Source of the DNA: Candidatus Obscuribacterales bacterium
GTDB taxonomy: Bacteria; Cyanobacteriota; Vampirovibrionia; Obscuribacterales; Obscuribacteraceae
Length of the DNA stretch: 60,501 nt
Direction of reading: 5' to 3'
Assembly: GCA_020050835.1 (NCBI GenBank)
Contig: JAGVKB010000099.1
Coordinates: 1 to 60,501 of the forward strand
Below, piece after piece: positions 4,025-40,800 of this stretch (position 1 is its first letter; every line of letters begins with the position of its first letter). A model generated the notes under the pieces. It was given only the letters and a program-made list of their open reading frames with translations, made no database searches and had not been told where the DNA came from. The translations under genes were made by a program, and so were the position numbers.

Positions 4025-4030
4025 CTTAGA

Positions 4031-5637: not shown

Positions 5638-5642
5638 GCATT

Positions 5643-7571: not shown

Positions 7572-7644
7572 TGGCTCGTAACTCAGCGGGTTGGACGGAG
7601 GCGCAACCGTTGCGAGCGAATCCTCGGCCTCCGTCAGGCAGCGC

Positions 7645-7829: not shown

Positions 7830-7858
7830 GGTTGTGAGATTGCAAAGTCTGCTGGCTA

Positions 7859-7980
7859 GTTGTCGGGAAAGTGTCGGGATTAATCTAAACTGCCGATTTA
7901 CGCCTGGAATCGCGACAAAATGTCGGGAAAAGTGTCGGGATTCAAGATTTTGGCCAGTTTGACCGACAAATCGCGACAAC
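7859..7980. repeat. Iteron-like double repeat
   Basis: Two units 60 bp apart each begin with TGTCGGGAAA(A)GTGTCGGGATT (7861 and 7921) and end with AATCGCGACAA (about 7909 and 7969). The first AATCGCGACA and the second TGTCGGGA almost form a dyad across 7910-7928. Repeats of this kind bind replication initiators or repressors. No gene is needed to explain the region between 7838 and 8081. Confidence 0.6.
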
Positions 7981-8081
7981 GAGTCCGCACATTCCTTGCA
8001 TTGGGGAGGAGGAGCGGCGGTGTGTTGGGGTGGGGGGCGGCACCACCTGCGCAGCAGGCTAGTGTGAAGGTTAATCCTCAG

Positions 8082-9914: not shown

Positions 9915-9954
9915 ATTTTTCCCTATCTCTTTTTAGGCACTCCGGCCGGATCTG

Positions 9955-11524: not shown

Positions 11525-11571
11525 GGTACAATCCATTATATCAGTTGTCGAGTGTTAAGCCAACCTAACAG
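11511..11571. promoter_or_regulatory. Overlapping divergent promoters and possible operator
   Basis: For the minus strand, a perfect TATAAT covers 11535-11540 with TTGGCT 17 bp upstream. For the plus strand, TTGACA at 11511-11516 stands 17 bp before CATTAT at 11534-11539. The two -10 elements occupy the same bases, so the promoters should compete. TGTTA and TAACA at 11554-11571 form an inverted repeat (8-bp spacer) next to the DUF2188 ribosome-binding site AGGAG and could be a repressor operator. This is based on inspection only. Confidence 0.5.
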
Positions 11572-11580
11572 GAGCATTAT

Positions 11581-11817
11581 ATGTCAAAGTCGCGAAATCA
11601 ACACGTAGTTAGGCATAATGACAGCTGGGCTGTTCGTGCCGAGGGTTCCCAAAAGGTCTCCAAGGAGTTCGATATTAAAGCCGATGCTGTTAACTGGGGG
11701 CGCAAAGTGGCTCAGAATCAGCAATCTGAGCTGTTCATTCATGGCAAGAATGGACAAATTCAGGACAGAGATAGCTACGGCAACGATCCTTGTCCGCCCA
11801 AAGATAAGAAACACTAG
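11581..11817 (+). CDS. DUF2188 small protein
   Basis: This 78-residue protein matches DUF2188: an N-terminal HVVRHNDSWAVRAEGS strand pair, then a KADAVNWGRKVAQNQ helix, and the characteristic RDSYGNDPCPPKD ending. The family is widespread and its function is unknown to me. AGGAG six nt before the ATG is a good ribosome-binding site. It is the first gene of the plus-strand operon leading to the MBL, E2-E1-JAB and patatin genes. It ends in His, with no C-terminal Gly, so it does not look like a processed ubiquitin-like modifier. Confidence 0.85.
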   Translation: MSKSRNQHVVRHNDSWAVRAEGSQKVSKEFDIKADAVNWGRKVAQNQQSELFIHGKNGQIQDRDSYGNDPCPPKDKKH

Positions 11818-11837
11818 ATTAGATGGAGTATAGAAGG

Positions 11838-12989
11838 ATGTCTTTCGAATTACCTGCCCAAGGCTTTGTATTCTGGAATGTCGGAACCGGCGATAGCACA
11901 ACGATCGCTATTACTGAGGGCGTCGTTATGCAGGTCGACCTGCACCACCTTTGTGCCGCTGATGACGAGGACGATCCCCGATGCGCGGTGGTGGATCGCC
12001 TTGAAGAGTGCCTTCCTTCGAAAGACGGAAACCCCTACCTATCGGTGTTCGCTCTGACACATCCCGACCTCGATCACTGTCAGGGATTCAAGGATCTTCT
12101 GGGCCGCGTAACCATCGGCGAGCTGTGGTTTACACCCAGGGTTTTTCGCGAGTATCACAAGGATCTCTGTGAAGATGCGCAGGCATTTAGACGGGAAGCG
12201 CATCGAAGGTTGAAGAAGGTTATTGAAAACAAGGGAAGCGTAGCAGCAGGTGATCGAATCCGAGTCATCGGTTATGACGAGCTGCTTGAGGAAGATAACT
12301 ACAGAGAACTGCCTCGGTCCTGTTTTTCTGTGCCTGGGCACGAGGTCACAACCATTGATGGGGTGGATCGGTCCGACGTATTTCGTGCTTTCATTCACGC
12401 GCCATTCAAGGACAATGCGGAAGGCGAGAGAAATGATACCAGTCTCGCCATGCAAGTTACGCTCAGGAACGGCGATGCGACTGGGAAGGTAATGCTTCTG
12501 GGAGACCAATGTTACCCCACAGTCAAGCGGATTTTTGATCTGAGCGATCGCGAAGATACTCAATGGAATGTTTTTCTGGCACCGCATCACTGCTCTAAGT
12601 CGGTAATGTACTGGAGAGATGCTGGCGAAGAGGAAGCATCGCGGAAGCAGGACATATTGGATGAGATCGAGGCATCGAGCGAGCTTACTGGTTACATTGT
12701 CTCTAGCTCAGCTCCAGTCCCCGCGTCTAATGGACCTGGTGACAATCCGCCTCATGCTTTAGCGAAGGAACGGTACGAGGAGATCGCTCCCAGCGGGTTT
12801 CTGTGCACGCAAGAGCATCCGAACGAAGAGTCGCCTGAGCCAATCGTATTCGCCGTTGACGAGGAAGGCTTTAAGTATGTTGAGCCGTCCACAGAATCAG
12901 CCGGTGAGAAGGCGAGATCACTTCACATAGCAGTGGGAGCTGCGCGCGGAAGCAACGATGCGCCCGCGCATCGCGTGGGACACGGTTAA
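11838..12989 (+). CDS. Metallo-beta-lactamase-fold hydrolase (ComEC-like MBL domain) of the ubiquitin-like/patatin operon
   Basis: About 383 residues from ATG 11838, chosen because GGAG lies 9 nt upstream; the frame is open to an ATG at 11823 without one. FWNVGTGDSTTI opens the domain. THPDLDHCQGF (residues 74-84) is the metal motif, followed by LLGDQ and APHHCSKS, as in MBL hydrolases related to the ComEC C-terminal domain. The last 40 residues are low-complexity, apparently disordered and end His-Gly. The stop is 2 nt before the next gene. MBL genes next to E2/E1/JAB genes have been reported in bacterial ubiquitin-like operons. Substrate is unknown; nucleic acid, nucleotide or a conjugate are possibilities. 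Confidence 0.85.
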   Translation: MSFELPAQGFVFWNVGTGDSTTIAITEGVVMQVDLHHLCAADDEDDPRCAVVDRLEECLPSKDGNPYLSVFALTHPDLDHCQGFKDLLGRVTIGELWFTPRVFREYHKDLCEDAQAFRREAHRRLKKVIENKGSVAAGDRIRVIGYDELLEEDNYRELPRSCFSVPGHEVTTIDGVDRSDVFRAFIHAPFKDNAEGERNDTSLAMQVTLRNGDATGKVMLLGDQCYPTVKRIFDLSDREDTQWNVFLAPHHCSKSVMYWRDAGEEEASRKQDILDEIEASSELTGYIVSSSAPVPASNGPGDNPPHALAKERYEEIAPSGFLCTQEHPNEESPEPIVFAVDEEGFKYVEPSTESAGEKARSLHIAVGAARGSNDAPAHRVGHG

Positions 12990-16497: not shown

Positions 16498-17072
16498 TTC
16501 TGTTCACAGACGACAGGCGTTCCCTTGCCCAGTGCTGCATCGATGCTACTTGAGACTGTCGACACGATAGAGTCGCAGGCGGCATAATTTACACCTTCGA
16601 CTTTAGGTGAGAAATCGAGCTGAATGACCGTAGTGCCGCGTTCGGTGCTGCGTACCTGAACGTCTAGCGCGAGGAACCGGTGCACACGCTCTTTGCGGGT
16701 GTGGATGTTGCCGCGGGCGTCGCCTTCGATGCGGGTGAATTCATCCATGAACCGCAGGTTTGCTGTGATCCGGCCGGACTGTGTATCGGCGGTGACGACG
16801 TGCCACTTGTCGCCGTAGTTGTAGGATACTTCCGCGAGGTAGTCGCGAATCTTTGCAAAGGCCAGTTTGGCAGGGACGTTGTACTCGCGTGGTGCCGGGT
16901 GCAGGAAGTTTGATCGTTCTTGAGCGGCGAGCTTGAAGAGTGGAGCGGCTGCCAGGAAGCCGAGAACTAGTCCTGGCAAAACGCCTGCTCCTGGATCGTG
17001 AGTGAGTTCGTTGGTTAGTGCTCCGGTGATAAGGAACACAAAGATTCCGGCTGCTATTGCTAGGATGGCCAT
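16485..17072 (-). CDS. Membrane protein coupled to the coupling-protein gene
   Basis: A 195-residue protein with two hydrophobic segments near the N-terminus (about residues 2-20 and 32-50), then a soluble beta-rich domain of about 140 residues. Its start overlaps the end of the VirD4-like gene by 13 nt, so it is the last gene of the mobilization operon. The coupling protein upstream lacks the usual N-terminal membrane helices. This product may provide its membrane anchor; that is inference from context. No family is recognised. Confidence 0.7.
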   Translation of the reverse strand: MAILAIAAGIFVFLITGALTNELTHDPGAGVLPGLVLGFLAAAPLFKLAAQERSNFLHPAPREYNVPAKLAFAKIRDYLAEVSYNYGDKWHVVTADTQSGRITANLRFMDEFTRIEGDARGNIHTRKERVHRFLALDVQVRSTERGTTVIQLDFSPKVEGVNYAACDSIVSTVSSSIDAALGKGTPVVCEQNYPG

Positions 17073-19063
17073 ACGTCATCTACCTCCGGTGAGTTGTCTT
17101 CTGGCTGTGAATATGTGGAGTGATCAGCGTGCGGGCGTTCTTGCTGGGTTGCACGCGAGTTTGAATTGCGCTGTCGATTGTCGCGGTTTCTGTCGTCGCG
17201 CCCTTTGTTATTGCGGTCTTTATTTCTGCGGTTTCTGCTGGTTCCGCCAGATTGATTTTCGGCGGCGCTGTTTGGCGATTGTTGTTGGTCCTTTTGCTCG
17301 TTTGTTCTGCCGCGTCTGCGGACGTGCTCAGTGATTTCGTGAGCCGGACGCTCCGGCGCGGGATATGCCATTGCATGTTCATAGGCATAAGGTGTGGTGA
17401 GTGGAAGCTTGAGCGGCCAGGTGTCGTTCGTGAATGCAATTACTTCGCCGCTGAGATTTATCAGTTCGTCTGGTGTGGCGAGCGCCCGTCCCTGAATGAA
17501 CTCGTGCACTCTGCCGGTATCATTTACGGTGACTTCTTCGATTGTGGTTCTGCCGAGCGCTTCGCTTAATGCGCGGGCTTCGCGGAAGTTCTTCTGTCTG
17601 AAGTAGATCTGCGTTGCCGGCTGGTCGAAGATTATCTGCGCCTCCTTTTGTGAGTAGATTCGTTCGAGCTGGAAGTAATTCTGGAATCCGAGCACGAGAC
17701 TTATCTTGGCTTTTCTGACGATTGATAGGACATTGGCGATGTTGGCGATCTTTCCGAAGTTTGTGAATTCATCGAGGAACATCGCTGTCGGATACTTCAT
17801 CGTCGCTTTGGTGTCGAGCAAGTAGTCGAGGAGGAAGTTCACCAGAAGGGAGCCAATTAGTTTGCTGTCTCGCGACCGGCTTGGCACCGCTATGTAGAAG
17901 GTGAACAGCTGATTCCTTAGTTCTTCGAAGTCGATGTCTGTCTTCTCCGTTAGCGCTACGAGCTGGTCGGTTATCCATGGATTAAGCTTTGTCATCAGTC
18001 CCGACAACACTCCGAATCTGAAGTTCTCGGAAGTCGAGCCGAGCCATCCCTCGAATTCCATTTGCGCGAGGTCTGATTTGCTCTTTGCCATCGTCTCCCG
18101 GACTCGGTTGATTCCAGAGAGAAGAAGCCATCTTATGGCCCCGATGTGACCCATCTCTGGTTCGGTTGCTGCGGCGTGAAGTATCAGTGATACCAGGAGC
18201 TGCTTTTCTGATCGGTCCCATGTCGGGTCGACTCTCGTTTCCTCGCCGCTGCCATTCATGATGATCAAGTCGGCGAGTTTCTCGGCTTCTCTGGCTTTCT
18301 CAAGTTGCGGTGCCATTCTTACTCGGTCAACGGGGTTGATTCGAGTTGATGACATGTCGGCTGGATTGAATGAGTAGATTCTGTGACCTGCCTGTTTCCG
18401 CCAGCCTGAAGTGAGCGTATACAATTCGCCTGGTTCGTATCCGGGTGTTGCCTCGGTGACGAGCATGTTGGTTCCGAGACGCTCCATCAGGTTCGGGATG
18501 AAGAAACCTCTGGACTTGCCTACGCCGGTTCGGCCGCATACTATCGCGTGCGCGTTTGTCACTAGCTCTGGCACCGAGATGTACTCGTTTTTCTGGGTCT
18601 TGCCGATGATTAATCGAGTTGCTTCGGGCTTGTTCGTGATGTATCCAGCTTTGTGTAGTTCGTTTTCATCTCCCCATGTTGCGCCACCATGGATGGTGGA
18701 TTTCGCTTTTGTTGCGGAGACTCGCTTTGCTCGACTTGCGTCTTCTTGAAGCTTGACGATTACCTGTTCGCATCGGCGCCGGCAATCTTCCTGAGTACCA
18801 CCTCCTTTCTTCTCTGAGATCTCAACGTCGACTAGCGAGCCGCCGGTTGATGTTTCAGACCATCGGAGAACGACTCTGTATTCGTGCCTCCACCAGTCTC
18901 TTCCAACTTGCTCGTCCAGTCTCTCTACGGCGAGTATTTGATCGAGTTGTTTACTCGCTCTGGAAACCTGGTATCCAAGTCTGTCCAGGACATTTACTGC
19001 GAGTACCGGTAATTCTTTGGGCGTCGTGTCCACGATGCCCATGTCGTGTGCTGTTGTTTGCAT
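17060..19063 (-). CDS. VirD4/TraG-like type IV coupling protein without membrane segment
   Basis: This 667-residue ATPase contains Walker A CGRTGVGKSRG near residue 178 and Walker B TAMFLDEFTNFG near 440, with GFQNYFQLE (sensor-like) after it, as in TraG/VirD4/TraD proteins. These hexameric motors bring the relaxase-DNA complex to the secretion channel. The usual two N-terminal transmembrane helices are absent; the first 150 residues are soluble. The last 110 residues are a disordered tail rich in Arg, Asn and Asp. It lies 6 nt behind the relaxase gene. Confidence 0.9.
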   Translation of the reverse strand: MQTTAHDMGIVDTTPKELPVLAVNVLDRLGYQVSRASKQLDQILAVERLDEQVGRDWWRHEYRVVLRWSETSTGGSLVDVEISEKKGGGTQEDCRRRCEQVIVKLQEDASRAKRVSATKAKSTIHGGATWGDENELHKAGYITNKPEATRLIIGKTQKNEYISVPELVTNAHAIVCGRTGVGKSRGFFIPNLMERLGTNMLVTEATPGYEPGELYTLTSGWRKQAGHRIYSFNPADMSSTRINPVDRVRMAPQLEKAREAEKLADLIIMNGSGEETRVDPTWDRSEKQLLVSLILHAAATEPEMGHIGAIRWLLLSGINRVRETMAKSKSDLAQMEFEGWLGSTSENFRFGVLSGLMTKLNPWITDQLVALTEKTDIDFEELRNQLFTFYIAVPSRSRDSKLIGSLLVNFLLDYLLDTKATMKYPTAMFLDEFTNFGKIANIANVLSIVRKAKISLVLGFQNYFQLERIYSQKEAQIIFDQPATQIYFRQKNFREARALSEALGRTTIEEVTVNDTGRVHEFIQGRALATPDELINLSGEVIAFTNDTWPLKLPLTTPYAYEHAMAYPAPERPAHEITEHVRRRGRTNEQKDQQQSPNSAAENQSGGTSRNRRNKDRNNKGRDDRNRDNRQRNSNSRATQQERPHADHSTYSQPEDNSPEVDDVWPS

Positions 19064-19069
19064 ATGTGT

Positions 19070-20356
19070 TTACTCCATAAAGTCAAGATCGCGATCGCGT
19101 TTTCTCTCTCCGATTTCTCGCTCTTTTCGCGCATCTTTGCGTGTGTTCTTGTTGTCTTCGATTGCATCATCAATCTTCTCGATGATTTCTTCGTCGGCTG
19201 CCTTGTGATCTGGATTGCCGCGAGTCCGCTGCTTTGCTTCAACGTCTCGCTTCGCATCTTCGAGATCGTCTCGGTTCTCTTTGAGGCGGTCTCGCTGATC
19301 GGTAAGCGGGATCATTCTCACTATCTCGGCGGCAATTGCCGCCTCGGTCAGGAAGAGTCCCATGATTGGATTCCGCATCATCTCCTGCTGTAGCGGCGAT
19401 ACATACCGATTTGCCGCCGGCGAATTGCGCGCTTCGTCTCTTGCTGTTTGAGATGCCTTAGCGCTTGTTAGTTGGCGATCGATTTCGCCGGAGAATCTGG
19501 CACGGTCTTTTTGTTCAATCCAATTCGCCAGGCGTTTGTAATCCTCCTTTGGTAGCCTGAGCGATTTGTCAGTGTTCTCATGCAGATGACGCCGGAGACC
19601 TGCCAGCCGTTCGTAGCCGTCGTCTTTTGAATAGCGTTCTCCCAGATACTCGAATGAGTCCTTCGGATCTCGTGGCTCATCCTTGTTCCATTGCTGATAT
19701 GGCTCAAGTTGTTCGCGGACGATTTTCTTGTGCAGCCATGGAAGCTCTTCTCCGTTCCTTATTCGTTCTTGTCTCTCCTTTTCGAACTGTTGCTGACGTT
19801 CCTTGTTGCGCTCCCGCTGTTTCTCCTGGCGTGCGAGTTCCGCGATGCGACAGTCCGAGTATTGGGTGCGTTCCAGGTAACGATCGCCGAATTCCTTGAT
19901 GAGGTCATAGTCTCGTTTGTCGAACTTGACTAATCGACCGTTCTTGTCCTTTGAGAGAACAACCACATGCATATGGCGATGCTCCGTGTTGTCGTGAGTT
20001 ACCGCCCAATACTGAAGATCGAGTGCCTTCTCTGAGCCGAGCTGGTGCATCACCTCCCTTGTAAATTCCTTCGGATCATTGGGGCTTACCTCCGGGGAGA
20101 GCGTCAGCTTGTGGATGACGACTCCCCGTCCTTCGTATTCGCGGACTATGTCCCGCAGCTCTTTTGCATCTACCGAATCCTCCGTATCGGTGAAGACATC
20201 TCGACCACCTTGTTCCAGATCTTTGCCGGGTCGGTGCTGGATGTATTTCACGTGTCCCAGCGCTGTACCGATCGCTAATCCTCTTGCGGCCTTCAAACTG
20301 ACTCCACCTCGCTGCTTCGCCTTGACGGAGATGTAGCTGTGGCGAACGATCATCAT
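19070..20356 (-). CDS. MobA/VirD2-type relaxase
   Basis: A 428-residue relaxase. The N-terminal third has the candidate nicking tyrosine in HVKYIQHRPG near residue 38, HKLTLSPE near 82, and the three-histidine metal motif HDNTEHRHMHVVVLS near 120-134, as in MOB-P/VirD2-type enzymes. It would nick oriT and stay bound to the 5' end. The C-terminal half is highly charged and helical, with a short hydrophobic stretch near 335-355. It overlaps the MobC-like gene by 4 nt and precedes the coupling-protein gene by 6 nt. A second Met follows the first, so the start may be one codon later. Confidence 0.9.
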   Translation of the reverse strand: MMIVRHSYISVKAKQRGGVSLKAARGLAIGTALGHVKYIQHRPGKDLEQGGRDVFTDTEDSVDAKELRDIVREYEGRGVVIHKLTLSPEVSPNDPKEFTREVMHQLGSEKALDLQYWAVTHDNTEHRHMHVVVLSKDKNGRLVKFDKRDYDLIKEFGDRYLERTQYSDCRIAELARQEKQRERNKERQQQFEKERQERIRNGEELPWLHKKIVREQLEPYQQWNKDEPRDPKDSFEYLGERYSKDDGYERLAGLRRHLHENTDKSLRLPKEDYKRLANWIEQKDRARFSGEIDRQLTSAKASQTARDEARNSPAANRYVSPLQQEMMRNPIMGLFLTEAAIAAEIVRMIPLTDQRDRLKENRDDLEDAKRDVEAKQRTRGNPDHKAADEEIIEKIDDAIEDNKNTRKDARKEREIGERKRDRDLDFME

Positions 20357-20757
20357 TTTTCGACTACCTTGCCCATTCGTTCAGCGATTGCCTTCTCGTC
20401 ATCCTCCAGGCGCTTTCGCATCTTCGTCTTAACGAGATTGGCTGCGGAGATGAATCGTTCTTGCATTTTGTTTTCAGCATGGTTTTGCCAGGCTAGTTCG
20501 TATAGTGTTCCGGTTTGCGCGCCCTGGCGTGCGAGCATGCCGCATATTCGATCAGTCATGTTCTTGATGTTTTTTGATAACTCGGTGTCTTTCCTGTCTC
20601 CTTTGAGTTTGTCGTGGTTCGCGATATACCATCGGACTGCTTCACGGAAGATGGCTGATTGTGATAATTTCCGTTCTTTGGCCATCGTGATTAGCTTCTG
20701 ATATTCATGTGGCGATAAAAGAGTTTGAATTCGACAGTTGTTGATTTCCTGTTTCAT
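20353..20757 (-). CDS. MobC-like accessory protein with ribbon-helix-helix N-terminus
   Basis: A 134-residue protein. Residues 1-50 read like a ribbon-helix-helix DNA-binding domain (RIQTLLSPHEYQKLITMAKERKLSQSAIFREAV). The rest is a long charged helix pair. Small RHH proteins directly before a relaxase bind oriT and help open the nick site. It overlaps the relaxase start by 4 nt. Confidence 0.8.
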   Translation of the reverse strand: MKQEINNCRIQTLLSPHEYQKLITMAKERKLSQSAIFREAVRWYIANHDKLKGDRKDTELSKNIKNMTDRICGMLARQGAQTGTLYELAWQNHAENKMQERFISAANLVKTKMRKRLEDDEKAIAERMGKVVEK

Positions 20758-21342: not shown

Positions 21343-21612
21343 TCAGCGACCATCGCCTGGAAAGACATTGCCGAATGCAGAGCGTGGTTGTTCGGTTCCT
21401 TGCAAGTGCTTGTTGATGAAGTCATCCAGATCGCACTTTCTGTAGCGAACCAGGCGACCTATTTTTATGCAGGCCAGTAAATATCTGCCCGAACATTTCC
21501 AGACGGCAAGCGTCTGTTCGGCGACACCGAGATACGCAGCGGCTTGTCTGCGCGTAAGCAATTCGGAGTGAGCAGCGCCCTCTCCACCCGGAAAGTTATC
21601 GTGTGATTTCAT
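21343..21612 (-). CDS. AlpA/excisionase-like helix-turn-helix protein
   Basis: About 89 residues from ATG 21612, chosen for AGAGGT 7 nt upstream; the frame is open to 21717. Residues 18-62 form the HTH and wing (RRQAAAYLGVAEQTLAVWK ... IGRLVRYRKCDLDDFI). Related proteins act as excisionases or transcription regulators of integrated elements. It heads the minus-strand mobilization operon. About 32 of 45 residues in this domain match the protein at 29483-29731, so the element carries two paralogues. Confidence 0.85.
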   Translation of the reverse strand: MKSHDNFPGGEGAAHSELLTRRQAAAYLGVAEQTLAVWKCSGRYLLACIKIGRLVRYRKCDLDDFINKHLQGTEQPRSAFGNVFPGDGR

Positions 21613-21895
21613 TTGTTTTACCTCTATGAGCGTTCGCAAGAATTCGGCGGCACTACTGATGAAAAGTCGTGCCGCACGGATTGCGAAAGGGGAGAAAGTT
21701 GTTGCAAAAAAGCTCAAACCACAAACATGATTTGAGCGTAAAAGAATATTTGATGGTGTTGGTCTACCTAATGGGCCGCAGCGCCATCAATCTCGCCGCA
21801 TAATTTCATTGTAGCGTGCCGTTTCGATTTTCTGGCTAGGGGGTTTTTCGCTGAGCCGAACCTGGGGTTATGGATAGGGATGGTTGCGAGCAGTC
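21613..21895. other. Upstream region of the mobilization operon
   Basis: No gene is supported in these 283 bases. The stretch probably holds the promoter for the minus-strand mobilization operon. It also contains the 3' flank of the P-loop kinase gene. I see no strong hairpin terminator. Confidence 0.4.
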
Positions 21896-29482: not shown

Positions 29483-29731
29483 TTATTGACCGCCGTGCAG
29501 GCGGTTCATGATGAATGCATCCAAATCGATTCGACGATACTTCACTAATCGCCCAAGCTTAATGTAGGGTAATGAGTATCTACCGCTCGATTTCCAGATG
29601 GCAAGCGTGTTTTCAGCGATTCCTAGATAAGCAGCTGCTTCCCTGCGGGAAAGGAGTTCGTTGTCGATGCGCGAGAAACTTGCCTTCGCATCAGCTTTTT
29701 GCGAAGGTGAAAAGAGTATGAGATTGTCCAT
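29483..29731 (-). CDS. AlpA-like helix-turn-helix protein (paralogue of 21343-21612)
   Basis: An 82-residue protein with RREAAAYLGIAENTLAIWK and LGRLVKYRRIDLDAFI. About 32 of 45 residues in the HTH and wing match the protein at 21343-21612. A GGAGTA ribosome-binding site precedes the ATG. It is first in the set leading to the DnaJ gene. The two paralogues may recognise related operators at the head of two different operons. Confidence 0.85.
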   Translation of the reverse strand: MDNLILFSPSQKADAKASFSRIDNELLSRREAAAYLGIAENTLAIWKSSGRYSLPYIKLGRLVKYRRIDLDAFIMNRLHGGQ

Positions 29732-30312: not shown

Positions 30313-31599
30313 ATGAAAAAGCTGGCATTGAACGAGGCGGCAATCGATATGCCGCGCACCGAAATCTCTAAATACAGAGATCTACTGGAGAGTAGTTTCC
30401 CGCACCATAGGGTGAGTAAGACTGCACATGTCCACCGCTTACGGCAGTTATGGACAAGGGAAGATTGGCTGGCAGCTGTAGAGCTGCTGACGCTGGCGCA
30501 TGCGATAGAGACAATGAACGGCATAGATCAACGCTGGACGAAGAAGCATGTGGACAAAATAGTTGGTAGAGATACAAACGAATTGATCGGCAGCACGTTC
30601 GAACTGAATTGCGCCACTATGCTTTTCGATGCCGGCTTGAAACCAAAGCCCGGCAAGAATAACTCTCCCGGCTATGATCTTGAGCTGGTTTATCCAGACA
30701 GCTACAAAGCTTTTGTCTCGTTGAAGAACCACGACCTATCCTCATTTGAGGCGGACTTCAGAGTAAGATGCCGCCGCTTTAAAGAGCAGATGAAGAGCAT
30801 CTTTGAGCCGAAAGGTGTGCACCCATTCGTCATGATCGAAGCGTCCAGACTGCCAAACGACAGTGATTGGGCAGCATTGGAAAAGCATCTTGCCGGGGTA
30901 AGCGAACTTGCGCAAGAACTAGTCCTAGCACAGCCCTGTGAAGGCATCGCGCTCGGATACAACCTGCTTCGGCCGAAGCCAGGAACAACCTTCGCGGACA
31001 AGCCGATCTCAAGCCAACTTATTGTGAAGAGCAAGTTCCATGATAACGAGCAGAATAACTTCGTGAGCAAGCTTGAGAGAGCGGCGCACAACATGCGAGA
31101 CAAGCTTGGCAAACATGATAACACCAGCAATATTGTCTGTATGCGGGTCAACCCGACCGCATCAGTTGCATACCTGGAGCGATTTGCCAAGGAGTTTCTT
31201 GAATCCGAGCATGATCACGGCATAGACGGAGTTATCTTCTATCAACCATCCGTTGTTCGCAATCCGAACAACACGTCAGTTGTGTCCCACTACACGCGTG
31301 TAATCGGATCGAGCCGCTGGGACCAGGACAAGCATCCAATTTTGTTTCGTCCATTCATCGGAGTGCCCGGAAAGAATCCATCCCGCATAGTGATACAGGG
31401 AGACGGCAAGCAGCTTTTGGACAATATTGAAGGGTACTTTTTCCAGGAAGGCGACTACTATCAGCAGTTTGTGCTGAAGGAAGGAACACAGTCGCTATCA
31501 AATCTCGCGCCCGGTATACGGTCTCACCTAGCCATCGGTGATGGCAGTGCAATCAGCGGAAAGCTATTTGCTGAACAAGAAGATCTGCTCATATTGTGA
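30313..31599 (+). CDS. Unknown protein with a nuclease-like segment, first of a two-gene operon
   Basis: A 428-residue soluble protein that I do not recognise. Residues about 93-145 (ELIGSTFELNCATMLFDAG ... GYDLELVYPDSYKAFVSLKNHD) have the helix-beta-beta layout of PD-(D/E)XK-like nucleases: an early Glu, an Asp in the second strand and a Lys in the third. The usual Glu before that Lys is replaced by Ser-Leu. The neighbour downstream shows a matching segment. The two genes are 2 nt apart and sit next to a type I restriction system. A defence role is inferred from this. Confidence 0.65.
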   Translation: MKKLALNEAAIDMPRTEISKYRDLLESSFPHHRVSKTAHVHRLRQLWTREDWLAAVELLTLAHAIETMNGIDQRWTKKHVDKIVGRDTNELIGSTFELNCATMLFDAGLKPKPGKNNSPGYDLELVYPDSYKAFVSLKNHDLSSFEADFRVRCRRFKEQMKSIFEPKGVHPFVMIEASRLPNDSDWAALEKHLAGVSELAQELVLAQPCEGIALGYNLLRPKPGTTFADKPISSQLIVKSKFHDNEQNNFVSKLERAAHNMRDKLGKHDNTSNIVCMRVNPTASVAYLERFAKEFLESEHDHGIDGVIFYQPSVVRNPNNTSVVSHYTRVIGSSRWDQDKHPILFRPFIGVPGKNPSRIVIQGDGKQLLDNIEGYFFQEGDYYQQFVLKEGTQSLSNLAPGIRSHLAIGDGSAISGKLFAEQEDLLIL

Positions 31600-31601
31600 C
31601 A

Positions 31602-33134
31602 ATGAAAGACAAGGAGATCATGGCTGAGTCCGAAGATATAAAAGAATACCGTCGTCAGCAGTTACAAGGGCTGGGAAAGTCTATTGATTCGTGGCTCGAC
31701 GGTTCCGTTCGGTGCGTGCGCGTAAACGACAAAGTCTATCGGAGTCCTAATTGGAAGACTTTCGAAGATTTCTTGTTCGCGTTCATCCAAGAAAAACTGA
31801 CTGCAGATTGGGCTCGTGCCGAGATGAAAAAAACGATTGGCTCTCGGCATCCGATCATGCAGTGGTACGATCGGGTCGCCAACTTTCAGTCCGACCAGGC
31901 TAAACAGAAGATGGCATCGCCACTCTATTTTACTGAGCCGACTGGAGCCATACAAGGCTTTCTCAATCTTGCATATTACCTGTATCTGTGCGAGCACCAT
32001 GGCGTTCTTACGGAAAAGATGTTGCAGCGCCTCAGAAATCCAGGGAATTTTGAAGGCGCGCTCTACGAACTGTATGTTACGGCTAGTTTTTTGAAAGCTG
32101 GATTTTTGCTTGAGTTGGAAGATGAGAACGACTCGACAGGTTCCCATCATGAATTTACTGCCACGCACTCAACGAGCGGGCAGAAATTTTCGGTCGAAGC
32201 GAGGACCAGGTATTCGTCGTCCAAGAGAGCTGGCCACAATGCGCACCCTCCCAGAGTAAAAGATAAGCTATGCGAAGCCTTGAAGAAGAGTGCTCTGCAC
32301 GAGCGAATTGTTTTCATTGAGCTGAATCGCGCCGAATATGCAACCGACGGCATGCCGCCAGCATGGGTAAAACAAATCGAGAAGGATTTCGGCGACGCGG
32401 AAACTGAATTCCTGACTCAGGTGCCTGAAAATCCATCCGCTTACGTGTTCGTTACCAACCAGAGTTTCATGCACTGGCTTGACCAGGCACCCAAGCCGCC
32501 GCTGCAGTTCGCGACCGGCCATAATATCGTAGACTTCCCTGCGAGCAAAAAGCCATCTACGATGGAAATGGTTGTAGAGTCGCGAGAAAGGCATGGTGAA
32601 ATGTATGACCTGCTCGAATCGTTAGGAAGGACCAGCGTACCGAGTAGCTTCGATCATCGGACGGCCGAGGAGTATTTTGGAGTGATTGATAGGCCAATGG
32701 TCGGAATGACTTTTCTGCTTCCTGATCAAGAAGGAAACATGATTGCGGGCGAGCTGCTCGACGCGCAAATTTTGGAGCAAGAGAAATCTCTTTTTGGACA
32801 ATTTAAGACTGACAAGGGCGTACTGCTTGCGACTTTCCCGCTAACCGATTTCGAGATGGCTGCATATTCCCGTTCACCGGAAACATTTTTGGGTGTTTTC
32901 AAACAGAACCCTCGAAAGATTTCCGATCCTTATCACTGCTACGAATTTGCCCACCAGAGCTACCGCCGGTCGACAAGTGAGTTCTTGATTGAACATTTGA
33001 AGCAGTGGTTTCCGCAGGATGAGTTGAAAGAGTTGAGCCATGGAGAACTTGTAAAACGGTACTGCCTCAACGTCGCGGCGATGATGTGGTCCAACGCACA
33101 TCCGGAAAAGATAGTAGCTAACGAGGTGCAATGA
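31602..33134 (+). CDS. Unknown protein with a matching nuclease-like segment, second of the operon
   Basis: About 510 residues from ATG 31602; ATG 31620 with AAGGAG 3 nt upstream is the alternative. Not recognised as a known family. Residues about 150-205 (FEGALYELYVTASFLKAG ... HHEFTATHSTSGQKFSVEARTR) copy the layout of the segment in the preceding protein, with Glu-Ala-Arg where the Lys motif would be. The C-terminal half is alpha/beta without motif. Translation is probably coupled to the upstream gene. The pair may act as a heteromeric complex. Confidence 0.65.
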   Translation: MKDKEIMAESEDIKEYRRQQLQGLGKSIDSWLDGSVRCVRVNDKVYRSPNWKTFEDFLFAFIQEKLTADWARAEMKKTIGSRHPIMQWYDRVANFQSDQAKQKMASPLYFTEPTGAIQGFLNLAYYLYLCEHHGVLTEKMLQRLRNPGNFEGALYELYVTASFLKAGFLLELEDENDSTGSHHEFTATHSTSGQKFSVEARTRYSSSKRAGHNAHPPRVKDKLCEALKKSALHERIVFIELNRAEYATDGMPPAWVKQIEKDFGDAETEFLTQVPENPSAYVFVTNQSFMHWLDQAPKPPLQFATGHNIVDFPASKKPSTMEMVVESRERHGEMYDLLESLGRTSVPSSFDHRTAEEYFGVIDRPMVGMTFLLPDQEGNMIAGELLDAQILEQEKSLFGQFKTDKGVLLATFPLTDFEMAAYSRSPETFLGVFKQNPRKISDPYHCYEFAHQSYRRSTSEFLIEHLKQWFPQDELKELSHGELVKRYCLNVAAMMWSNAHPEKIVANEVQ

Positions 33135-33355: not shown

Positions 33356-34615
33356 TTAATTTGCTTGGTGAGCTTCTGCCTCTATGTCCCAGACGAGCAT
33401 ATTTGGATAGGCAAATGTTCCGCTACAGCCGAATCGCGACAAGATGACTTTGTATAGGAATTGAATGACCACATAAAGATGTTCCATTTCTTCAACGATG
33501 AACTGGTCATCTATTGATCTGCTCACTGTCCTTGTGACATCGAGTGACTCGACTTCTTGCATAAGACCTTCTGTCGGGCTGGGAGACAGTTCGATCTCGC
33601 ACAGTTGCGCAAGGGCAGGAACAACGTTCACGTTGTCAATTGCCGGATCAATCTGCCTACCAATATTTTCTAGCAGTAGTATTAATGCCGCTGCTTGTAC
33701 CTCTGGGTAGCATGTATTCGCACTCCACCAGCCTTTGAGATGCCGAATGATCTCTAGCCCATCGAAAAAGAAGTATTCGGCAGCCTTTGTTATCAACGCG
33801 AGAGGATTTCTGCCGCGGTTAGGAAAAACTCTTATAGGCGGAAGAAAGCACCTGTTTTTAGCCATGGACGGTCGTCGCGAGGGAACGTCAGTAATGTCTG
33901 CAGTCGATGTCTGGGTGAACGTTGCTAAAGGTCTTACAGTTTCTCCCCACAAGAAGCTCAGAGTATCGATCAGAGCGTCACGATGCCATGAGATGTTTTC
34001 GTCGAACTGCTGCTGGACTTGAATACGAACCCAGGCTTGGTTATCCTGCAACAAGAGGGCGTACTGGGAATTTGAATTCTCCGGAGAAAAAGAAAACAAC
34101 ATTTGACAGTCGCCGAGTTCATCGTCCGCAATTGGCTGTTTAGTGAATAATTTCAAAAACTCGGCTGGGATGATATCGCTGTCGAATACCGCGTAGGCAC
34201 GCGCCAATCCATCCGGCAAGGCTTGTCTCCGCACTTGCTGAAACGCCACGCGCTGCAAAAAGGCATGCCCGTCAGCAACTGGGCCTTCCAGTCCGTATCC
34301 TTCAGTCATGGTCCAATTACCGACGCGGCCGGAGACTAAATCACCCCCGCATCTCGCGAAAACATTAGGGGCCGGTGCTGGTCGTCCTACGCGAGGCGCG
34401 CTGGCCGCAAAGACCATATCTTGCACGTTGAACGTTGGGGTATTGCCGAGGGTTCCATTGGCTCTGAACAGTATGTCGCCGGACTCTTGCACTCTAATCT
34501 CCCCGGCACCGTCATTCAGAAACCGCTTTGTTCCAAAGTCCCAATCTTCGCTAAAGAAGACGCCGGTTAGTGGTCTTTGTAATTGACCGGCGAGGAATTC
34601 TCTCAAGTACTGCAT
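33356..34615 (-). CDS. Unknown protein downstream of the type I restriction genes
   Basis: About 419 residues from ATG 34615, chosen because AAAGGTG lies about 8 nt upstream. The N-terminal half is beta-rich (residues about 15-230), and the C-terminal half is helical. The layout recalls ApeA-type abortive-infection proteins, but I do not see the R-x(4-6)-H of a HEPN RNase, so that is not claimed. It follows hsdR by 69 bp on the same strand and is probably co-transcribed as a fourth gene of the restriction island. Confidence 0.6.
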   Translation of the reverse strand: MQYLREFLAGQLQRPLTGVFFSEDWDFGTKRFLNDGAGEIRVQESGDILFRANGTLGNTPTFNVQDMVFAASAPRVGRPAPAPNVFARCGGDLVSGRVGNWTMTEGYGLEGPVADGHAFLQRVAFQQVRRQALPDGLARAYAVFDSDIIPAEFLKLFTKQPIADDELGDCQMLFSFSPENSNSQYALLLQDNQAWVRIQVQQQFDENISWHRDALIDTLSFLWGETVRPLATFTQTSTADITDVPSRRPSMAKNRCFLPPIRVFPNRGRNPLALITKAAEYFFFDGLEIIRHLKGWWSANTCYPEVQAAALILLLENIGRQIDPAIDNVNVVPALAQLCEIELSPSPTEGLMQEVESLDVTRTVSRSIDDQFIVEEMEHLYVVIQFLYKVILSRFGCSGTFAYPNMLVWDIEAEAHQAN

Positions 34616-34684
34616 GGATTTTTCACCTTTCAGGATTGGCTGCAACCATATCTATGCCAGTGCGCGTGTTGTGATAGTGCTCAG

Positions 34685-37600
34685 TTAAGCGGCGGCATTG
34701 TTATTTATGCTGCGAATTACGGCGACGATTCGGTTGGCGGCATCATCCCCGAATATGCCATCAAGTCCGTCATTACTGAAATCCGTAAACGGAGGCTCGT
34801 AGAGACGTCCTGGATCCATGATTCCGTTTTGAGTCAGGTAGTCTATTATCTGATTGACAAATTGAATTTGCTTGGCATTGTACGTTGTGTTACTGAGGAA
34901 TTCGCCGAATGCCTGGACGGCTGCGCCGCGATCGAGCCCGACAATTGAGCGGACAAGTTCTCCGAGTGACTGTGCGGCGCCAAAGGCTCTTTCGAAGTCC
35001 TGTCTGTCGCCGAGCTCACCGGACTCAAACAGTAGGCGCTCTAAGTCTTGCAACTCTGAAGTTGTGATTGGAAGATTCCTCTTTAGTTTGTTGACCGTCA
35101 GGTGGTCTTGATGCGACCGCAGAAAATGACGCATGCGCTTGCGGTATTGCTCTATGTTGTATTCAGTGCCAAGCCAGTGGGATGCAACCTCCGCCACATG
35201 TCCAAGCGTGTCTTGAAAGTCTGCGTATACTATTGTGCGCCTGCGCTTTTCGATAAACTTGACGAGGTCTCTCAGCCGAATTCGGACGAGTTCAAGCATT
35301 GGGACAGTAACGTCGGTCCAGTAATCATTCTCTTGAATCTGGCGAATGAGATCAATGTGGTCATTGACCATGGGAATGCTTGCCTTTTCTTCCAGTTGGT
35401 GCGCTATTTCGCGCACTTGTGTTTCCCATCGGTTGAAATCCGGAGTGTGGTTTAGGCGAGCAAGCTGTAGCCGCAGAATGAGGAGGTCGAACTGTTTTGC
35501 GGTCTCTTCCTCGGACGGAAGTTCGGTGGGGAGCCGAGAAACATTGTCCGTCAATTGATCCACGTCTTCGTGCGGAATTTGATGCCATGCTTCCCAAGCG
35601 GCTCTCTCACGAAACTTCTCAACTTGACGCCGATAAGGTCTAACCAGAAAGTTGTCTACATTCATTGCAGCAACATTCTTGTGGAGAACATCTACTACAG
35701 ACGTAGCAAACTCGCTTAAACCTGGGTCTCCATCGACCGGTGAACAAATTGTGCTCAACATAGTCAGCCTAGCCTTAAAGAGCCTTGTGGAAAGTGGCTC
35801 TGATAGCGAACTATCCGGTGCCTCAGGATTCTGATTGAAGAACTCGAAGTTGCGACAACAGTCAAAAATATAGAAGCACTTCTTATCCTTGCCGGGGCCG
35901 AAGACGTTTTTGCACAGACGAGTGCCTCTGCCAACCATTTGGAAGAATTTCGTTTTTGACCAAACTGGTTTGAAAAAAACAAGGTTAACGACTTCCGGAA
36001 CGTCAACACCAGTATCGAGCATGTCCACAGAAATGGCTATGTGTGGTGCTTTTTCGGGCGTTGAGAAATCATCCAAAAGACTGTCAGCATAAGTTATTTC
36101 GTTGTCGATAACTTGGGCGAAGCTTCCTTTCGAATTCTTGTAATGTTCATCGAATCTCTCCTGGATGAACATGGCGTGTTTGTGATTCCGAGCAAAGATG
36201 ATGGTCTTGCCGAGTCGGTCTCCGCCGGCAACTTTTTGACCGCGATCCATGAGAGTTCTGAGCACCTTATCCACAGTGTCACTGTTGAAAAACCAAGTGT
36301 GAATAGCTGGGGCTTCGACTGTACGTGGAGGCGGAGCGCCATCTTCGCCCCATTCCATCACGTCCCATTCATCCTTTTCATCGTCAGACAGATCATCGTA
36401 ACGAACGCCGCGAGCAGGAAATTGAATGGGCACAGTGATGGACTTTGGCTCCACTAGATACTCGTCGTTGATTGCCTGGCTCAACTCATAGGCATAGGTT
36501 GGGTTGCCATCTTCCAAGTCGAATAAAGAGTAAGTGTTGTGATCGATGTCGTCTCGCGGCGTCGCTGTGAGTCCGATTAGCAAGCTATCGAAGTAGTCAA
36601 AGATTGCCCGATACTTTTGGTAGACGGATCTATGCGCCTCATCAATCACCAGCAGGTCGAAGTGTCCCGGACCAAAACGACGAGCGCCTGAATCGGTTTC
36701 ATCGATTAGTCCCATCATAGTGGGATATGTTGATACATAGACTCGACTTCCGGTTTGTTCTTTCTCGTTGAGCAGATTGACTGGACTTGAGTCGGGCAGA
36801 TGCTTTTTAAACTCTTTCACCGCCTGTTTCACAAGCGCTCGCCGATCAGCAAGAAAGAGTACTCGCTTGACCCAGTTTGCGCGCTGCAGCAACTCACAAA
36901 GGGCAATAACGGTTCGTGTCTTTCCAGCACCAGTCGCCATTACCACGAGTCCTCTGCGATTTCCGTTCGCAAGCTCTTCGGTTATATGCCGTATTGCCTC
37001 GTGTTGGTAGTAGCGCTCGACGATAGAGGTATTGATCGCAAGAGACGAAGGTTTAGTCTTCGAAGTGCGGCGTTGTATAAGCAGTTCAAGCTCTTTTTTC
37101 TTGTAAAAACCTTGCACTCTACGAGGTGGATAATTTTGATCGTCCCAGATCCAAGTGTCGTAGCCGTTGGTATAAAATAAAACAGGGCGCTGTTTGAACT
37201 TGGATTCAAGGCAGTCTGCGTAAAGCTTTGCTTGCTGTTGACCGATTCGCGGGTCTTTCTTTGTGCGTTTTGCTTCAACAAGCCCTAGTGGTAATCCGTC
37301 GTCGCCCCACAGAACGTAATCAACAAATCCTTGGCCGCTTGTAGTCGGCATGCCGGTTACGGGATACTCCCGATCTTCATTCTTGTCCAGAGGCCAGCCG
37401 GCTTCCCTCAGCATCAGGTCGATGAAGTAATCTCTTGTCTCGGCTTCTGAGTAATCGTGATCGTCTGGTATCTTTTGGTTGCGCTTCTTCGCTTCTGCGA
37501 TCTCTGCACGGAGCTTCTGAATTTCAGCGTCCGTATCTATGAGTGCCTGCTGCTTTTCGAGAAGATCCTTGTCTTTGTTGTGCAGTTGCTCCTGTAGTTT

Positions 37601-38071
37601 CTGCAGCTCGTCACGGGTCTGCTGAATGACCTCTGCGGGCGGGGGTGGAAGCAAAGCAGGGTTGAAGGTGAGCCCGTCGAACTTTCTAGGATCTTCGCGC
37701 GTATAAGTTCGCGCCAGCCAGTACAGAAAATGGAACAGCTCAGAAATGGCTCGCAGTGCATCATTTGTCGTTATCGGTCTTGAACTGTGCACAGCGAGAT
37801 TGCCGATATCCTTGATAGTCCGAATCTTTAGAAAGAGATCGTTGGATAGAAGCCGGCGAAAACTGCTCTCATGAATGAGGGCATTGAGCTGATCGTCGTA
37901 AGGACGGCGAACTGAATTGTCGTTGGCGTAAATCCATTGAACAGCAATCTCCAATGTTCGCCTTGTATGGAAACAGGCCGCGCGCGGATCATAGTTAACC
38001 GAGAGCTCAGCTTTGGAGGCAGCCTTCCTTAGGCCATCCCATTCGTCTTTGAGGAAAGCAAACATACTCAC
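34685..38071 (-). CDS. hsdR: Type I restriction enzyme, R subunit
   Basis: A 1128-residue motor-nuclease subunit. Residues 1-130 resemble DUF4145. A coiled coil is at about 150-200. The nuclease domain at 215-330 has DYVLWGDD and LVEAKRT (the D / E-x-K motif). The helicase domain has Walker A MATGAGKTRT near 382, DEAH near 476 and LTATPRDD near 503. The C-terminus resembles EcoEI-type R subunits. With HsdM and HsdS it translocates and cuts DNA lacking the host methylation. GTG 38071 is the likely start, with AGGAG 8 nt upstream; it begins directly after the hsdS stop. Confidence 0.95.
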   Translation of the reverse strand: MSMFAFLKDEWDGLRKAASKAELSVNYDPRAACFHTRRTLEIAVQWIYANDNSVRRPYDDQLNALIHESSFRRLLSNDLFLKIRTIKDIGNLAVHSSRPITTNDALRAISELFHFLYWLARTYTREDPRKFDGLTFNPALLPPPPAEVIQQTRDELQKLQEQLHNKDKDLLEKQQALIDTDAEIQKLRAEIAEAKKRNQKIPDDHDYSEAETRDYFIDLMLREAGWPLDKNEDREYPVTGMPTTSGQGFVDYVLWGDDGLPLGLVEAKRTKKDPRIGQQQAKLYADCLESKFKQRPVLFYTNGYDTWIWDDQNYPPRRVQGFYKKKELELLIQRRTSKTKPSSLAINTSIVERYYQHEAIRHITEELANGNRRGLVVMATGAGKTRTVIALCELLQRANWVKRVLFLADRRALVKQAVKEFKKHLPDSSPVNLLNEKEQTGSRVYVSTYPTMMGLIDETDSGARRFGPGHFDLLVIDEAHRSVYQKYRAIFDYFDSLLIGLTATPRDDIDHNTYSLFDLEDGNPTYAYELSQAINDEYLVEPKSITVPIQFPARGVRYDDLSDDEKDEWDVMEWGEDGAPPPRTVEAPAIHTWFFNSDTVDKVLRTLMDRGQKVAGGDRLGKTIIFARNHKHAMFIQERFDEHYKNSKGSFAQVIDNEITYADSLLDDFSTPEKAPHIAISVDMLDTGVDVPEVVNLVFFKPVWSKTKFFQMVGRGTRLCKNVFGPGKDKKCFYIFDCCRNFEFFNQNPEAPDSSLSEPLSTRLFKARLTMLSTICSPVDGDPGLSEFATSVVDVLHKNVAAMNVDNFLVRPYRRQVEKFRERAAWEAWHQIPHEDVDQLTDNVSRLPTELPSEEETAKQFDLLILRLQLARLNHTPDFNRWETQVREIAHQLEEKASIPMVNDHIDLIRQIQENDYWTDVTVPMLELVRIRLRDLVKFIEKRRRTIVYADFQDTLGHVAEVASHWLGTEYNIEQYRKRMRHFLRSHQDHLTVNKLKRNLPITTSELQDLERLLFESGELGDRQDFERAFGAAQSLGELVRSIVGLDRGAAVQAFGEFLSNTTYNAKQIQFVNQIIDYLTQNGIMDPGRLYEPPFTDFSNDGLDGIFGDDAANRIVAVIRSINNNAAA

Positions 38072-39274
38072 CTAAAGATCTCCTCGAAATGCTCTGTCTT
38101 GCAGTGATTCAAACAACGCGTTTAGCTGTCCATGAGATTGATCGAGTGTCATTGTGAGGGCTTCGACTTGCGCCAGGCAATTGACAAAACGTGCTTGTAA
38201 CGCCAACGGTGGAAGCGGCACGGGCATGGAACCAACAATGTCTTTATTTAAGTTCGACATTGTTACTCCTTGGGCAACGTTCTCTAGATACCGACGCATG
38301 GAATTGGAAGAAACGACAAAACACAAGTACGTTGAATTCAACATACTTGCGTTAGGTCTGACAAAGAGACTGCCGGTGCCACAGAGCCAACCATGCTCCT
38401 TCTGAGATATGACTGCACAGCGGCCCATTTCTCCTCGTCTGCCCAGGATCAGATCGCCAATAGATAAATGGTATTGACTAAGCTGTTTATATTTGTCGCC
38501 CGGCACAGTAAGCGAGGAATCGGTCAAAATCTTGCCGCCTTTGATGTGTGTGGGGTTTATTAGCGGAATGCCATTGTCAACATAATCCTCTTCATGCAGC
38601 TGACTACCGAACGGTCCTATTTGAATTCGATCTGCTAGTTTGTTAAGCGGCTGCACATCCCAGCCTTTTGGATTAATGATCGGATCGCCAAAAAGATCGT
38701 CAAAGGTCGACTGAGCAAATGATTGAAGCAGACGCAAGGTCTCCCGACGCTTAGCCCGGAGTAGTTCAGCATTATCTAAGAGAGTCGCTATGTGTTTTTG
38801 TTCGCTTAGCGATGGTAACGGGATTACTACCTGTTTCACCACCTCGCTATTTAGGTTTTTCACAACAGCCCCAACAGCCATTCTACTAAACTGTGCATAA
38901 ACGAAGTCCGAGCTAAGAACGTGGTACAGATAATCTTCTGTCAGCAATTCGGCATCATACCTAAGTACCAGCCATCCGTCGTGAATACATCCACTCGTTT
39001 GCAGAATATACGGACGGCCGAAGCTCATCGAATTCGATAACAGAAAGTCTCCGGGGTAGACTTCTCTTGAGTATCTTGTGCCATCAGCTGAAATTTTTTC
39101 CGCTGTAGAGTAAATATATTTTGCGCCTTCCGCGACATCACCAATCTTGATCCAATTGACGCCGTCGCTGGAATTCGTGATGTAGTTGCTTATGGGTCTG
39201 GGAGAGCCGCCCCTCTGAATCTGGCAGACATCACCCAATGATACTGTTCGCCATTTATTTGTGAGTACGATCAC
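38072..39274 (-). CDS. hsdS: Type I restriction enzyme, specificity subunit
   Basis: A 400-residue protein with two target-recognition halves. Each half ends in a conserved helix: SLGDVCQIQRGGSPRP starts the first, PLPSLSEQKHIATLLDNAELLRAKR ends it, and PLPPLALQARFVNCLAQVEAL ends the second. It defines the two half-sites of the DNA target. GTG 39274 overlaps the hsdM stop by 4 nt (GTGA), giving translational coupling. The target sequence cannot be read from the protein alone. Confidence 0.93.
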   Translation of the reverse strand: MIVLTNKWRTVSLGDVCQIQRGGSPRPISNYITNSSDGVNWIKIGDVAEGAKYIYSTAEKISADGTRYSREVYPGDFLLSNSMSFGRPYILQTSGCIHDGWLVLRYDAELLTEDYLYHVLSSDFVYAQFSRMAVGAVVKNLNSEVVKQVVIPLPSLSEQKHIATLLDNAELLRAKRRETLRLLQSFAQSTFDDLFGDPIINPKGWDVQPLNKLADRIQIGPFGSQLHEEDYVDNGIPLINPTHIKGGKILTDSSLTVPGDKYKQLSQYHLSIGDLILGRRGEMGRCAVISQKEHGWLCGTGSLFVRPNASMLNSTYLCFVVSSNSMRRYLENVAQGVTMSNLNKDIVGSMPVPLPPLALQARFVNCLAQVEALTMTLDQSHGQLNALFESLQDRAFRGDL

Positions 39275-40800
39275 CGTACCAACTCCTCCAGGCGCTTTAT
39301 CCCGTCTCGGATTTCATCTTCAAGCGCTGTCAATCTTAAGAGTATTTCGCTTGGTGGGCTGTGCTCGATTCGCTGATGAATTACTTCCTTATACCGACTT
39401 ATGGAAAGATCGTAGCCTTGCGCAGCAATGTCAGATTTTGGAACGCAAAAACTTTGTTCAGTACGCAATCGAGTTCGTTCGGATGAGTCGCGCTGAAGCC
39501 ACCGTGTTAAGAGATCGGGAAGATTGTTCTTGGCTTGCTCAGCAGCAGTCAGCGGAGCAGCCGGTTTGGCGCCAAGTTTGTCGTCTGGCAAAAGAGGCTG
39601 ACGCTTATCATCAAGGCTCCAGCCGTCCGACTGCATTTCATAAAACCAGACATTGTCCGTTCCGCCAGAGTTGGTTTTTGTGAAAATGAGAATGGCGGTG
39701 GAGACGCCAGCGTAGGGTTTAAAGACCCCAGATGGAAGTGATATGACACCGTCTAGCTTTTGCTGTTCGACGATCATTTTTCGAAGCGATTTGTGTGCGT
39801 TAGACGAGCCAAATAGAACGCCGTCCGGTACGATAACCGCAGCGCGCCCACCGGGCCTCAGCAAACGAAGAAAGAGAGCTACGAAGAGGAGTTCCGTCTT
39901 TTTGGTCTTAACAATTTTCAGCAGATCGTTGGCACATGACTCATAGTCCAAAGAACCTGCAAACGGAGGATTGGCGAGGATAACAGTGTAGTGCTCCTCC
40001 TCGCCAGCGTGGTCTTCAGATAAGGAGTCTTTGTAGGAAATATTTGGATTCTCAACGCCATGGAGCAACATGTTCATGCTCGCAATGCGCAGCATGGTGT
40101 TATCGAAATCGAAGCCATTGAACATCTTTTCGTGAAAGTGTTTCATGAGCTTATTGTCGGTGCGAATGTCCTGGTGACGGGATTGTAGGTATTCGCTAGC
40201 ACTAACTAAGAAACCTGCAGTGCCGCAGGCAGGATCACAGATGATGTCTGTGGGTTTGGGTGCAATTACTTCGACCATCATGTTGATGATGTGCCGCGGT
40301 GTACGGAATTGTCCATTTTGACCAGCTGAAGCGATTTTTCCAAGCATGTATTCATATACATCACCCTTGGTATCACGATCTTCCATCGGAATATCATCTA
40401 CGAGCTCGACAACCTTCGCTAACAAACCAGGAGTCGGAATTGTGAAGCGCGCATCCTTCATATGATGTGAGTACGTCGAGTGCTCAACGTCGCTTCTGAG
40501 CTCTTTGATAAACGGAAAAACCTTTGTGGACACAACATCAAACATTTCTTGTGGCGACAGGTTCTTAAAGCGAGACCACCGGAGCTTTTGTCCTTCGCTG
40601 TCAGACTGAAAAACCGGACTCTCAATTTGTCGTCCGAGCCGATTTGCCTTCTTCTCTTCGCGTGTGTGCAGCTCATCAAGTCTGCGAATGAAGAGCAAGT
40701 ATGTTATCTGTTCGATCACTTCCAGTGGGTTTGAGATGCCACCAGACCAAAAGGCATTCCAGAGAGCATCAACCTTAGATTTCAGTTCGCCAGTGATCAT
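39271..40800 (-). CDS. hsdM: Type I restriction enzyme, DNA adenine methylase subunit
   Basis: A 509-residue N6-adenine methyltransferase. ITYLLFIRRLDE lies in the N-terminal HsdM domain. CDPACGTAGFLVSA near residue 188 is the AdoMet-binding motif, and ANPPFAGSLD near 275 is the catalytic NPPF motif. It methylates the site chosen by HsdS to protect self DNA. It is first in the hsdM-hsdS-hsdR order and lies at the inner right end of the element. Confidence 0.96.
   Translation of the reverse strand: MITGELKSKVDALWNAFWSGGISNPLEVIEQITYLLFIRRLDELHTREEKKANRLGRQIESPVFQSDSEGQKLRWSRFKNLSPQEMFDVVSTKVFPFIKELRSDVEHSTYSHHMKDARFTIPTPGLLAKVVELVDDIPMEDRDTKGDVYEYMLGKIASAGQNGQFRTPRHIINMMVEVIAPKPTDIICDPACGTAGFLVSASEYLQSRHQDIRTDNKLMKHFHEKMFNGFDFDNTMLRIASMNMLLHGVENPNISYKDSLSEDHAGEEEHYTVILANPPFAGSLDYESCANDLLKIVKTKKTELLFVALFLRLLRPGGRAAVIVPDGVLFGSSNAHKSLRKMIVEQQKLDGVISLPSGVFKPYAGVSTAILIFTKTNSGGTDNVWFYEMQSDGWSLDDKRQPLLPDDKLGAKPAAPLTAAEQAKNNLPDLLTRWLQRDSSERTRLRTEQSFCVPKSDIAAQGYDLSISRYKEVIHQRIEHSPPSEILLRLTALEDEIRDGIKRLEELVR

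Follow-up and report, generated by a model that had tools for sequence, protein, structure and literature searches.

Two putative Mrr-like nuclease genes lie side by side on a conjugative element of an Obscuribacterales bacterium

Two adjacent open reading frames (here termed gene 1 and gene 2) in a contig of Candidatus Obscuribacterales bacterium appear to be independent cargo genes for Mrr-like PD-(D/E)XK nucleases that have come to lie side by side once (probability roughly 0.6). The contig is analyzed here in its entirety (termed the window, 60501 bases of a 7.0-Mb genome). The host element is a conjugative one, and each gene travels alone elsewhere. Each protein would cut invading or modified DNA by means of its own metal-dependent active site. 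Both proteins, distantly related to one another, are probably new and as yet unnamed additions to a known superfamily; with them, two mobile families of restriction-like proteins, neither of which has a name, join those worth testing. Observed directly are the conserved residues, the likeness of both profiles to an established nuclease family, the absence of co-occurrence and the element backbone held in common. We infer the fold, nuclease activity, DNA target and anti-DNA or anti-phage defence role of both proteins from comparisons of sequences, gene neighborhoods and distribution.

Position and surroundings of the two genes

The open reading frame list, together with Pfam and PADLOC assignments for the restriction-modification (RM) genes, gives the following loci:

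30313..31599, + strand: gene 1, 428 aa, ATG start
31602..33134, + strand: gene 2, 510 aa from ATG
33356..40800, - strand: type I RM operon, convergent to genes 1 and 2
39271-40800, - strand: HsdM of this operon
38072-39274, - strand: HsdS of this operon
34685-38071, - strand: HsdR of this operon
33356-34645, - strand: unclassified 429-aa gene of this operon, directly after HsdR

Genes 1 and 2 are co-directional, and the ATG start of gene 2 (position 31602) is 2 nt past the stop codon of gene 1, as a preliminary description of this DNA had it. An alternative GTG start for gene 2 at position 31596 gives a 512 aa chain and overlaps the gene 1 stop by 4 nt. The 2-nt spacing implies that the two genes are co-transcribed in the window, and thus a joint function is allowed in this one genome.

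The type I RM neighbor had also been correctly placed; HsdM, HsdS, HsdR and the 429-aa gene adjoin on the opposite strand. This operon is treated here as context only. The 429-aa protein has no match in Pfam, NCBIfam or PADLOC, and relatives of it were not found in the gene 2 loci examined. Genes 1 and 2 have no methyltransferases of their own beside them, the only nearby HsdM being that of the separate, convergent operon. Scans for flanking repeats, promoters and terminators gave nothing above chance. Scans of both window proteins yielded no match to any Pfam, NCBIfam or PADLOC model, the latter including the models for known anti-phage systems.

A nuclease-like core common to both proteins

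The preliminary description pointed to a matching segment in the two proteins. In gene 1 it reads E97-LNCATMLFDAG-108 and in gene 2 E158-LYVTASFLKAG-169, with the same E-to-G spacing (11). The downstream motifs are YD122LEL ... VS136LK138 in gene 1 and HHE186F ... VE201AR203 in gene 2. The consensus proposed for the segment, (E)LxxxAxxLxxAG, does not fit both sequences letter by letter.

When the profiles of the two families are aligned, the score is 33.0 over 143 columns, and the E, D/E, S/E and K/R positions are all in register. Of 200 column shuffles the highest-scoring reached 29.5, and the reversed alignment scored 14.4. The matching segments are real, and their likeness, scoring above all 200 shuffles, is more than chance. 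The profile comparison was not significant with six gene 2 sequences, but it was with 58.

A set of 21 Mrr_cat domains (PF04471) from related genomes was used as an outside yardstick. Gene 2 aligns with these in register at E = 1.2e-4 (score 36.4, best shuffle 22.0), and gene 1, likewise in register, at E = 0.0022 (score 27.3 vs. 18.5); all of the 100 column shuffles made for each comparison were exceeded, column shuffles being a lenient control. As the shuffles are lenient and the hhalign probabilities low to moderate (55%, 13% and 11%), a predicted restriction-like core is well supported in gene 2 and fairly supported in gene 1. The expectation of such a core in both chains is thus upheld by the profile matches of the two proteins to each other and to the Mrr_cat relatives, at the level of sequence profiles. 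Neither window protein reaches the gathering score of Mrr_cat. Both families display the residue order of the PD-(D/E)XK superfamily (E, D/E, D/E/Q/S-x-K), with R in place of K in the window copy of gene 2, and both have a profile similarity to the superfamily above that of shuffled controls.

Conserved residues of the gene 1 family

The gene 1 family is rare and unnamed. Invariance of residues was scored in an alignment of six diverse members, and the core was placed by this alignment and the Mrr_cat profile:

30580..30852, + strand: PD-(D/E)XK-like core of gene 1, residues ~90-180
30601-30603, + strand: E97, invariant in the 6 family members
30676-30678, + strand: D122, invariant in the 6 family members
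30718-30720, + strand: S136, invariant in the 6 family members
30724-30726, + strand: K138, invariant in the 6 family members
3 residues after K138, + strand: D141, candidate extra acid, invariant in the 6 members
30748-30750, + strand: E146, candidate extra acid, 8 residues after K138, invariant in the 6 members

The C-terminal half of the protein is also conserved (H243..E246Q247, R278, D305 and Q311P312). S-x-K is an invariant motif of the family. Because E97...D122...S136-x-K138 is invariant in all six members, gene 1 is not a half site. The earlier statement that each protein lacks part of a site is therefore misleading: the S-x-K of gene 1 is family-invariant, and the Arg of gene 2 is found in the window copy only (see below). 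Catalysis by gene 1 would proceed through E97, D122 and K138, with Ser replacing the usual second acid. It is a guess that D141 or E146 stands in for that acid.

The gene 2 family and the Lys to Arg change

The gene 2 family is likewise unnamed and occurs in ~60 species of several phyla. Its relatives comprise 61 loci in the species collection, 3 viral-contig loci and 8 plasmid records, the carriers among plasmids being rhizobial and Caballeronia plasmids. An alignment of 63 sequences and the Mrr_cat profile place the following features:

32043..32330, + strand: PD-(D/E)XK-like core of gene 2
32067-32069, + strand: E158, present in 63/63
32151-32153, + strand: E186, E or D in 63/63
32196-32198, + strand: E201, present in 63/63
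32202-32204, + strand: R203, codon AGG; Lys in every other aligned member

Lys is found at position 203 in 62 of the 63 members and the sole exception is the window copy. Its AGG codon is one transition away from AAG. Thirty columns are conserved in at least 95% of the relatives; window gene 2 keeps 29 of these and is changed only at K203. With an intact frame of 510 codons and 29 of 30 conserved columns kept, the window gene is not eroded, but with its catalytic Lys replaced by Arg it may have weak activity or none. A second copy of window gene 2 that would permit a check of codon 203 was not found. A reading in which the window copy has lost activity, or K203R is an assembly error, so that only gene 1 matters, would account for the near-universal Lys and the single transition; the intact frame and the retention of the other conserved columns speak against it, and it appears doubtful.

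Most gene 2 family members (49/58) have an N-terminal SEC-C zinc motif, which window gene 2 does not have. Since full-length similarity still puts the window copy in the family, SEC-C is common but not defining. Members from the cyanobacteria group that were examined are also without the SEC-C part. Direct Pfam matches among the relatives consist of four members with weak matches to Mrr_cat and one with a match to PDDEXK_9. A sequence search of the PDB with gene 2 gave matches to SEC-C stretches only. Loci L023-L083 display the SEC-C zinc motif fused to an Mrr-like PD-(D/E)XK core as a widespread, unnamed family, and searches of the available literature found no paper on this combination.

Relation to Mrr_cat and CCGG-family enzymes

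Both families have the core order of Mrr_cat, alpha(E)-beta-beta(D/E)-beta(x-x-K), in register. They differ from it in that both window proteins have long additional N- and C-terminal parts, and in the motif itself, which is SxK in gene 1 and ExK in the gene 2 family vs. QxK in most Mrr_cat relatives.

CCGG-family restriction enzymes (NgoMIV, Cfr10I and BsaWI) have a Lys without the usual preceding acid and use a downstream acid, in the pattern PDX21-53KX12-13E (PMC4652773); the active site of BsaWI consists of E92, D145, K165 and D175 (PMC4652773). The second acid is thus supplied from further along the chain (PMC4652773, PMC6344858). Gene 1, with E97, D122, SxK138 and the invariant D141 and E146, resembles this arrangement. 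The likeness is one of arrangement only: the downstream acids of gene 1 are closer, 3 and 8 residues past the Lys, and a PDB search shows no sequence similarity of gene 1 to any solved structure. Because Mrr_cat relatives use Q-x-K and CCGG enzymes take a downstream acid, the SxK of gene 1 together with D141/E146 fits known variation.

It could be argued that both proteins reuse a restriction-like fold for DNA binding or regulation and are not nucleases, in that gene 1 does not have the acidic residue of (D/E)xK and that in the gene 2 family Glu mostly takes the place of the usual Asp. Both families, however, keep the E, D/E and K columns strictly, as catalysis predicts, and the same departures in the (Q-x-K) Mrr_cat relatives and in the CCGG family (PMC4652773) lessen the force of the missing acid. 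A non-catalytic role for both proteins is therefore unlikely.

Distribution of the two families

The preliminary description proposed a heteromeric pair, possibly a new two-gene defence system, and named co-occurrence in other genomes as a check. The two genes were found together nowhere else. None of the 71 gene 2 open reading frames has a relative of gene 1 in its locus, and the reverse search was also negative. A gene 1 profile search of 50 genomes carrying gene 2 gave no hit (0/50); this profile recovers a held-out relative (genome G401) at E = 3e-51, although very diverged relatives could escape it. Of the 53 genomes of the order, three have gene 1 and three have gene 2, not counting gene 2 matches restricted to SEC-C stretches, and the overlap is the window genome only. 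Gene 2 is absent from the gene 1-bearing genomes G001, G030 and G401.

Gene 1 has two relatives in the bacterial family of the window, one with 52% and one with 30% identity, and a further one elsewhere in the phylum that is split between contigs. Copies are present on plasmids of Burkholderia glumae, Rahnella, E. coli and Salmonella and on IncHI2-type plasmids of Enterobacteriaceae, and there gene 1 stands alone. Its neighbors vary, e.g. a metal-transport ATPase in genome G001, and toxin-antitoxin genes and IS elements on the plasmids. Genome-contig and viral scans showed no gene 1 relatives, nor did 350 species genomes of the class to which a Xanthomonas relative belongs (0/350). Phage records contain no relative of either gene. 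The gene 2 loci are varied as well and have no shared partner; a recurring or fixed neighbor was found for neither family. As the genes were found together nowhere else, they have the appearance of separate items of mobile cargo, not of a new two-part defence system.

The Type IIT restriction enzymes (BbvCI, Bpu10I) offer a model for a heteromer, in which gene 1 would do the cutting and K203R gene 2 would be silent or play a structural part. They also have two related nuclease-type subunits encoded by two genes, and there are known heterodimeric restriction enzymes whose two catalytic sites differ (PMC4081073). The 2-nt spacing and the related cores agree with such a model. So does the finding that the lone departure of gene 2 among its 30 highly conserved positions is at the catalytic Lys, which would suit a partner relieved of catalysis. 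Type IIT enzymes are, however, generally accompanied by two methyltransferases (PMC4081073), and genes 1 and 2 have none dedicated to them; the pair was encountered a single time, each family is otherwise found by itself, and K203R amounts to one transition in a single draft genome. A heteromer of this type is improbable, and a variant in which gene 2, as a portable subunit attaching itself to varied defence modules (HmaABC in one element, gene 1 in the other), has become the silent (K to R) partner of active gene 1 in a heteromer recently assembled from two stand-alone families is highly improbable.

A composite active site, also proposed earlier, was considered and rejected. With E..D..SxK retained across the gene 1 family, and E..E/D..ExK in 62 of the 63 gene 2 members, each family has its own full catalytic positions when it stands alone and a composite site is unnecessary.

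Two independent nuclease genes remain the preferred reading. Each protein most likely cleaves DNA singly, perhaps as a restriction-type barrier, to judge from the conserved catalytic columns, from the mobility of both genes and from the RM or Hma genes that occasionally lie nearby. It is possible that self DNA is spared through methylation by a neighbor.

Defence genes near gene 2

Of 65 gene 2 loci, about 5 have type I RM or Hma genes nearby, and recombinases and unrelated genes are equally common. Among the nearest neighbors are recombinases, HsdS, SMC and numerous housekeeping genes, and no one family dominates. A control of 113 open reading frames at 15 loci gave no RM or Hma matches and is too small for judging enrichment. 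As the neighbors are mixed, no enrichment for defence genes is claimed; a defence role is no more than suggested.

The conjugative element and a related element

The conjugation genes of the window, assigned by Pfam, are as follows:

17060..20757, - strand: conjugation/mobilisation backbone (coupling protein, relaxase, accessory protein)

A genome of the same bacterial family (G046) has an element (L150/L015) whose backbone shows identities to that of the window of 79% (coupling protein), 75% (relaxase) and 60% (accessory protein). Several other genes are common to the window and the G046 contig. This contig also has the closest complete relative of gene 2 (41% identity), situated ~5 nt behind HmaC in the order HmaA-HmaB-HmaC-gene 2. 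Relatives of gene 1, HsdM and HsdS were not found within the ~56 kb examined. Such a difference between related elements in the companions of gene 2 is expected from exchange of cargo and speaks against genes 1 and 2 being an obligate unit. Related conjugative elements can thus bear different defence-type cargo on one backbone.

The Hma system has been described with three proteins, and gene 2 is not among them (PMC8565338). In contrast to the G046 element, the window has no Hma genes adjoining gene 2. The role of gene 2 would be that of a nuclease module able to sit behind varied defence genes, HmaABC in the sister element and gene 1 in the window.

In L015 (G046:C9:411000-430000), positions 23-12222 encompass HmaABC, then the gene 2 relative, then an unclassified 565-aa gene. 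It is possible that these genes form an extended Hma operon.

Two small helix-turn-helix proteins of the window (positions 21343-21717 and 29483-29731, - strand) are 78% and 64% similar, respectively, to one protein of the G046 element. The second of these resembles MAD1/excisionase, below the cut-off. An open reading frame at positions 8082-9914 (- strand) encodes a protein of 610 aa that matches DUF4365 (E = 5.5e-8) and also, weakly, a PADLOC class of Argonaute-associated nucleases; it is possibly another nuclease-like cargo gene.
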